This document shows, piece after piece, positions 23,487-27,886 of a stretch of 32,716 bases of DNA. Position numbers and translations under genes: made by a program. Position 1 is the first letter of the stretch. Each line of letters opens with the position of its first letter. Source of the DNA: Microbacteriaceae bacterium (GTDB lineage: Bacteria; Actinomycetota; Actinomycetes; Actinomycetales; Microbacteriaceae). A model generated the notes under the pieces. The model was not told the DNA's origin, made no database searches, and saw nothing but the letters and a program-made list of their open reading frames with translations. The stretch spans positions 1-32,716 of the forward strand of contig JAUZGC010000197.1 of assembly GCA_030840105.1 (NCBI GenBank), read 5' to 3'.

Positions 23487-24680
23487 TTAGTTGCTGACGT
23501 CGCCGGTAATGACGGCGCGACCGACGATCAACTTCTGGATCTCGTTCGTTCCCTCTTCGAAGCGCTGTGCGCGGGCGTCGCGGTAGACCCTTTCGATGGC
23601 GTTGCGCTTCCAGTACCCCTGGCCACCGTGCACCTGGAGTGCCTTGTCGGTGACTCGGGAGAGCATGTCGACGGCGATCATCTTGGATGCGCTGGAGAGC
23701 ACGGCCGCATCCGGGGCGCCGGTTTCGAAGGCCTTGGCGGCCTGCAGCACCAGTGCCTTGGCCGCGGCGATGTCGGCGTAGTTCTCGGCGAGGTAAAACT
23801 GGATCGCCTGCCGGTCCGCCAGCTTCTTGCCGAACGTCTCGCGGCGCGTGGCGTAGTCGATCGCGAGTTCCTGCGCGCGCTCGGCCAGTCCGACGCAGCT
23901 CATCGCCACCGAAATCCGGCTTGGAAGGAGGAATCCGCCGAGCGCTACCGCCAGGCCGTCGCCTTCCTCGCCAAGGCGGTTCGCGACCGGCACCGGCACC
24001 TCGGTGAATCGGAGGATGGCGTGGTCGGTGCCACGCACACCCATGGTGGCGGAATCGTCGACCACCTCAGCGCCCGGCAGACCGGAGTTGGGCACCAGAA
24101 GCGCCACGGTTCCTTCGTGACCGCGGGTGCCTTCGAGGCGGGCGGCCAGCAGCCAGTAATCGCAGTTCACGCCGAAGGTGATGAGGTGCTTCTCACCGTT
24201 GAGGTAGTAGGTGTCGCCTTCGCGCCGAACGGTGGTGCGGATGTCGGCACCGGTCCCCGCGGTCGCTTCGGTCAGCGTGAATGCGACGAGCACATCCCCG
24301 GCGACCGACGGCTTCACGATCTGGTCGCGCTGGGCGTCTGTCGCGAAATCGTCCATCGCACGCCACGTGCCGTTGATGACGTGCACCAGCATGCGGATAG
24401 AGGCATGCGAGCGGGAGAAGATCTCCATCAGCTCGAGATATTGGCTGAATGGGATGCCGCGGCCACCGAGCCGCTTCGGAGCGGCCAGACCGAGGAATCC
24501 GTGGGCTTTGAGCTCCTGGAAGAGTTCCGGCGGGACCACACCCGTGGACTCGATCTGCTCGGCGAAGTCCTCACCGGCACCGCGCACCCAGGCGTCGACA
24601 TCGTGCTTGAGAGCCAGGAACTCCTCGTCGCCCAGCGGCGCGGCGACCTCGCGTTCGGGTGCCAGGTGGGTGGACGTCAT
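23487..24680 (-). CDS. Acyl-CoA dehydrogenase family protein
   Basis: TLTEATAGTGADIRTT, MGVRGTDHAIL, VHGGQGYWKRNAIERVYRDARAQRFEEGTNEIQKLIVGR (catalytic Glu region). Confidence 0.93.
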   Translation of the reverse strand: MTSTHLAPEREVAAPLGDEEFLALKHDVDAWVRGAGEDFAEQIESTGVVPPELFQELKAHGFLGLAAPKRLGGRGIPFSQYLELMEIFSRSHASIRMLVHVINGTWRAMDDFATDAQRDQIVKPSVAGDVLVAFTLTEATAGTGADIRTTVRREGDTYYLNGEKHLITFGVNCDYWLLAARLEGTRGHEGTVALLVPNSGLPGAEVVDDSATMGVRGTDHAILRFTEVPVPVANRLGEEGDGLAVALGGFLLPSRISVAMSCVGLAERAQELAIDYATRRETFGKKLADRQAIQFYLAENYADIAAAKALVLQAAKAFETGAPDAAVLSSASKMIAVDMLSRVTDKALQVHGGQGYWKRNAIERVYRDARAQRFEEGTNEIQKLIVGRAVITGDVSN

Positions 24681-27600: not shown

Positions 27601-27886
27601 GGCCCTCTGCCCCCCGATTACCCCGTTCCGAGACATCCGTCGCCCTGTACTGGCCGCCGGTGACGACGTAGCGATCGCCCTCGACACGGATCTCGGTTCC
27701 GAGCGCACGCAACGCGCTGACAGTCCACTCGACCTGCCGGGTTCGGGAGATGCCATGGATGACACTGGTGCCCGGTGCCAGCGATGCCAAGACCAGCGCC
27801 CGGTGCGCGTGGTACTTCGAAACAGGGATGTCCAATTCGCCGCTGAGCCGGTGAGAGGTGCCTGTGACCATGAGCTGCATGTACAA
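24677..27886 (-). CDS. Fusion of divergent EPSP synthase (AroA-like) domain and AMP-forming acyl-CoA ligase (cyclohexanecarboxylate-CoA ligase-like)
   Basis: Single 1069-aa open frame. N-terminal half: [53 protein letters not shown]. C-terminal half: [61 protein letters not shown]. Stop overlaps the downstream ACAD start (ATGA). Confidence 0.9.
   Translation of the reverse strand: [1069 protein letters not shown]
26382..26471 (-). repeat. Three in-frame 30-bp tandem repeats encoding the AroA-ligase interdomain linker
   Basis: GCGGTGACCGG[GG/CA]... units at 26382-26411, 26412-26441, 26442-26471; protein ...[27 protein letters not shown]. Confidence 0.9.

Follow-up and report, generated by a model that had tools for sequence, protein, structure and literature searches.

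The conversion of shikimate to cyclohexylcarbonyl-CoA was reportedly assigned by Cropp and colleagues in 2000 to AnsJ, AnsK, AnsL, AnsM and ChcA of the ansatrienin-producing Streptomyces collinus, with ansJ and ansK reportedly as separate genes. A related gene set is found in phoslactomycin biosynthesis, which uses cyclohexanecarboxyl-CoA as starter unit (PMC5852498; PMC9730843) and whose cluster table lists plmJK, plmL, chcA and plmM in that order (PMC5852498). In Streptomyces sp. HK803 plmJK (pnP1 and lmP1 in related clusters) is one listed gene, followed by those for a dehydrogenase, the ChcA reductase and an NADH:FMN oxidoreductase, and the pathway feeds a modular polyketide synthase. As its name suggests, plmJK presumably encodes a single polypeptide. 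Omega-cyclohexyl fatty acids, on the other hand, are known from Alicyclobacillus and from Curtobacterium pusillum. The latter, a member of the Microbacteriaceae, is documented as a maker of these lipids (Suzuki 1981, via PMC3426160).

We analyzed a stretch of 32,716 nucleotides (the window), which is an entire contig of the 2.74 Mb genome, in 294 contigs, of an uncultured Microbacteriaceae bacterium. Its minus strand contains an uninterrupted open reading frame (24677..27886) of 1069 aa, when counted from the TTG at 27886. Since relatives begin with MQLxVxGT and a purine-rich GGAAAGG lies upstream of the ATG at 27880, this ATG is the likely start, and the gene would then cover 24677..27880 (minus strand, stop at 24677) and encode 1067 aa. 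The PlmJK-type product combines an EPSP-synthase-like, AnsJ-type domain (aa 1-440; 26561..27880, minus strand) with an AnsK-type ANL acyl-CoA ligase domain (aa 517-1067; 24680..26332, minus strand). Both were recovered by Pfam, with PF00275 (EPSP_synthase) complete over aa 11-434 (E=1.8e-80), PF00501 (AMP-binding) over aa 522-920 (E=5.7e-71) and PF13193 (AMP-binding_C) over aa 971-1048 (E=1e-14); alignments place the first domain, and motifs and a fold match the second. AlphaFold2, run with a 43-row alignment, predicted two confident domains with residues 444-507 disordered at a pLDDT of about 30 (overall mean pLDDT 86.1, pTM 0.58). An earlier note, made from the DNA letters, had proposed a single-frame fusion of these two domains with limits at about aa 1-440 and about aa 515-1069, and the open reading frame, Pfam and AlphaFold2 agree with this layout.

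The fused gene is the head of a compact operon of four genes on the minus strand. Profile matches identify the second gene (23487..24680; 397 aa) as an acyl-CoA dehydrogenase family member of the AnsL/PlmL type; its ATG, preceded by GAAGGAG, shares 4 nt with the end of the fused gene. It is followed by a ChcA-type SDR enoyl-CoA reductase (22578..23405; 275 aa; profile matches) and, 6 nt past the stop of the latter, by an AnsM/PlmM-type flavoprotein of the old-yellow-enzyme/2,4-dienoyl-CoA reductase type with a 4Fe-4S cysteine motif (20538..22571; 677 aa). The order matches plmJK-plmL-chcA-plmM, and the window combines the two domains in one polypeptide with genes for a dehydrogenase, a ChcA-type SDR and a dienoyl-CoA reductase. 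The enzyme set is also that described for the ansatrienin producer, although AnsJ and AnsK, reportedly separate there, are one protein here. We consider it probable, at about 0.78, that the fused gene encodes the first enzyme of a four-gene pathway that would lead from shikimate to cyclohexanecarboxyl-CoA and on to omega-cyclohexyl fatty acids. The earlier suggestion that a shikimate-derived cyclohexane carboxylate is activated with CoA is likely right, judging from the domains and the operon order. Operons of Arthrobacter, Cellulomonas and uncultured Actinomycetes were also seen that lack the ChcA-like SDR, the dienoyl-CoA reductase or both (L066, L068, L071, L091, L096; L070, L079, L084, L085, L087; L077, L088). 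In some of them the ring may be left less fully reduced; alternatively, the missing genes may lie elsewhere (some of these contigs end nearby).

A single frame of this length could in principle be an artefact in which sequencing or assembly merged two genes, and separate genes do exist: in one relative (G027) the two genes are split and overlap by GTGA, and a more deeply branching lineage (family f34) likewise has two genes, the start of the second lying within the first. Against this, in-frame fusions with other linker lengths were found in separate assemblies of the same genus (G001, 90% identity) and of the same family (G023, 88% identity). Both domains also lie in one frame with no stop between them in 80 of the 80 best named relatives, a set ranked with a two-domain query that favors fused copies; searches with the first domain only are free of that bias. 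Because independent near relatives and all 80 relatives are fused, with differing linkers, a sequencing join, which the earlier note had named as a possible refutation, is in practice excluded. The split in G027 looks secondary, since this relative falls within the fused rows of the tree.

The linker itself (aa 441-516; 26333..26560, minus strand) is rich in Ala, Pro, Thr and Ser, contains repeats and is predicted to be disordered. Among relatives its length ranges between 24 and 96 aa. An internal start that would yield a separate ligase was considered and rejected: the candidates in the linker, an in-frame ATG at codon 501 and GTGs, all lack a ribosome-binding site. Inside the linker lies a 30-bp tandem repeat of 3.2 copies (26381..26475, minus strand) encoding 10-aa units; it may expand and contract, and near relatives differ in linker length.

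Using the first domain alone as query, we found it in 11 of a sample of 394 genomes of one Streptomyces genus (that of G452), where 11 of 12 copies sit in frames of 997-1127 aa. The exception (L144, in G551) is a lone partial copy that is interrupted by an in-frame TGA, has no neighboring ligase gene and is possibly decaying or repurposed. Every Streptomyces locus among those of the 80 relatives is likewise fused; the fused Streptomyces relatives that were compared show 51-54% best-segment identity. Hence the expectation that the Streptomyces versions are separate proteins did not hold, and plmJK too is listed as one gene. Of 397 evenly sampled Actinomycetota genomes only five had the first domain, namely the window's own and four of family f34; in f34 it forms a frame by itself, and the ligase was confirmed as a gene of its own alongside. 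Because the same joined gene occurs in many other bacteria, Streptomyces included, the fusion is ordinary within a known pathway and not new. The idea that it channels a reactive intermediate found no support, given a disordered linker of 24-96 aa, lineages in which the genes are naturally split, and a mutual orientation of the domains that is undefined in the model (pTM 0.58). The tether would at most raise the local concentration. A plasmid search returned matches to the ligase half only, at less than 60% identity, and an Rfam scan gave no match.

The first domain shares its fold and family (PF00275) with EPSP synthase (AroA). It scores 309.5 bits against the NCBIfam aroA equivalog TIGR01356, above the cut-off of 287.25, and matches EPSP synthase 1eps with E=1.6e-48; this assignment rests on the sequence match, the fold search having returned ligase structures first. 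As far as the fold goes, the 'full-length AroA fold' described earlier is a fair description, but other residues stand in for the serines with which EPSP synthase binds its substrate. Serines 23, 169 and 197 (E. coli numbering), present in 23 of 23 AroA sequences of relatives and E. coli, correspond to Tyr23, Leu172 and Glu201 in the window domain. Within the family the tyrosine is found in 89 of 89 rows covering the site and the glutamate in 90 of 90, while Leu172, read from the ungapped motif GTLSQ versus SxSSQ, is invariant in the 43-row alignment. Ser23 is among the EPSP synthase ligand contacts listed in a docking paper. In the tree the two AroA rows are separated from every row of the family (support 100/99), and a separate true AroA is encoded elsewhere in the same genome (C48). 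In E. coli EPSP synthase structures S169 and S197 contact the 3-phosphate. Because serines 23, 169 and 197 are Tyr, Leu and Glu, we conclude from the alignments that the first domain is not an EPSP synthase despite its acceptance by the aroA model. Two further candidate differences were dropped. An apparent change of K411 to Ile came from a gap problem in a poorer alignment, the better one giving Arg with a one-residue insertion; N336H and K340 are not diagnostic of the family, true AroA proteins of relatives having His there.

For the reaction at this altered site, a shikimate dehydratase is the likeliest reading. Its specific form, to which we give a little under even odds, is a shikimate 1,4-dehydratase that descends from EPSP synthase but works without PEP, with Glu in place of the phosphate-binding Ser197 acting on the 3-hydroxyl and the tethered ligase capturing the product. 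A good part of the EPSP synthase site is nevertheless kept: K22, R27, R129, D325, E353, R356, H396 and R397 (window numbering) are present; in EPSP synthase numbering, the kept PEP-site residues are K22, R124, E341, R344 and R386. Throughout or almost throughout the family K22, R124, E341, R344, H385, R386 and D313 are conserved, with K411 as Arg plus the insertion. This conservation would suit a domain that still uses PEP and places an enolpyruvyl group on unphosphorylated shikimate, that group or its neighbor leaving later. We regard such a reaction as unlikely, as no operon gene is suited to an enolpyruvyl intermediate and the kept arginines may instead bind the carboxylate of shikimate or stabilize the domain in its closed form. 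Published labelling work is also said to show a direct 1,4-elimination as first step, which counts against PEP use. Equally improbable in our view is shikimate-3-phosphate as substrate, its phosphate leaving by a chorismate-synthase-like chemistry in the EPSP synthase fold. The fold of the relatives does bind this compound, and S170, Q171 and K340 are kept, but in the family Leu and Glu occupy the positions of the 3-phosphate contacts S169 and S197, and the glutamate should repel a phosphate.

With a shikimate dehydratase as the preferred reading, the N-terminal domain, no longer making EPSP, would remove water from shikimate by 1,4-elimination and yield a dihydroxycyclohexadiene carboxylate, and Glu201 may assist the leaving of the 3-hydroxyl. 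The C-terminal ligase would then convert the diene acid with ATP to its CoA thioester. This domain has both the AMP-binding and the C-terminal domain of ANL acyl-CoA ligases together with their core motifs (a 14-residue motif, YRTGD and NTIGKVQK), and a fold search with the predicted structure placed ligase structures on top, 5wm6 among them. The best curated model is TIGR03208, the cyclohexanecarboxylate-CoA ligase AliA, at 446 bits and thus far under the equivalog cut-off of 792. AliA is the nearest curated ligase family, and AliA-annotated plasmid genes are about 39-40% identical to the window ligase; AliA degrades cyclohexanecarboxylate, however, whereas the window enzyme is presumably biosynthetic. 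The acyl-CoA dehydrogenase, the SDR and the dienoyl-CoA reductase would finally take away the two remaining hydroxyls and leave a saturated ring.

The resulting cyclohexanecarboxyl-CoA would serve FabH and FabF of an ordinary type II fatty acid synthase as primer, and the membrane would come to contain omega-cyclohexyl fatty acids. The fused gene also occurs in Curtobacterium pusillum, where its product is about 68-69% identical along its full length and the same three genes follow (L024, L053). It belongs to a different genus of the Microbacteriaceae, and the lipid product documented there is a probable one for the window organism. Use of the CoA ester as a polyketide starter, as in phoslactomycin, would be the competing outcome. 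There, genes in this order supply a modular polyketide synthase, and such a use is possible in principle because the fused module of one Streptomyces locus (L143) sits among several ketosynthase genes. For the window we nonetheless think it quite improbable. A modular polyketide synthase signature was found neither in the window nor, for the 80 relatives, in the surrounding 9 kb or so. Neither the metagenome-assembled genome (MAG, G000) nor related genomes contain a modular ketosynthase, and family genomes with the operon have only one or two stand-alone ketosynthases of FabF size. The remainder of the window is housekeeping in character and includes nrdR, pyrD, dhaKL, genes for cytochrome oxidase, a sigma factor and a SulP transporter, and qcr genes. 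In the same stretch, a 1002-aa frame (13093-16101, minus strand) matches cytochrome oxidase subunit III in its C-terminal part only; the rest is probably non-coding and overlaps plus-strand genes.

The fatty acid reading also bears on the elongation enzymes. In the MAG, which is rated 97% complete, fabF and fabH were not found. This is likely a gap, because the same-genus genome G001 carries both, side by side. In several lineages a stand-alone FabF-type synthase adjoins the operon (L112:10714-11946; L057:16331-17560), and in L072, L082, L089 and L090 it lies directly before the fused gene; it may be specialized in elongating the chain that starts from the ring. A separate contig of the MAG encodes a thiolase-fold protein truncated at the end of the contig (L103:3-878, G000:C38), which matches the C-terminal domain of ACP synthase III; by eye it resembles a type III PKS, and it received no NCBIfam name at the threshold used.

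Because the score of the first domain passes the aroA equivalog cut-off, annotation pipelines will call it an EPSP synthase. These results account for a gene that automatic annotation will name after the target of glyphosate, EPSP synthase, although its carriers possess a genuine EPSP synthase besides. The three named residue changes make it testable how the fold came to another reaction, and if the dehydratase reading is true, a carboxyvinyl transfer would have been turned into an elimination within one fold. The distribution of the operon suggests that the capacity for omega-cyclohexyl lipids is scattered over the Actinomycetota and Eremiobacterota.
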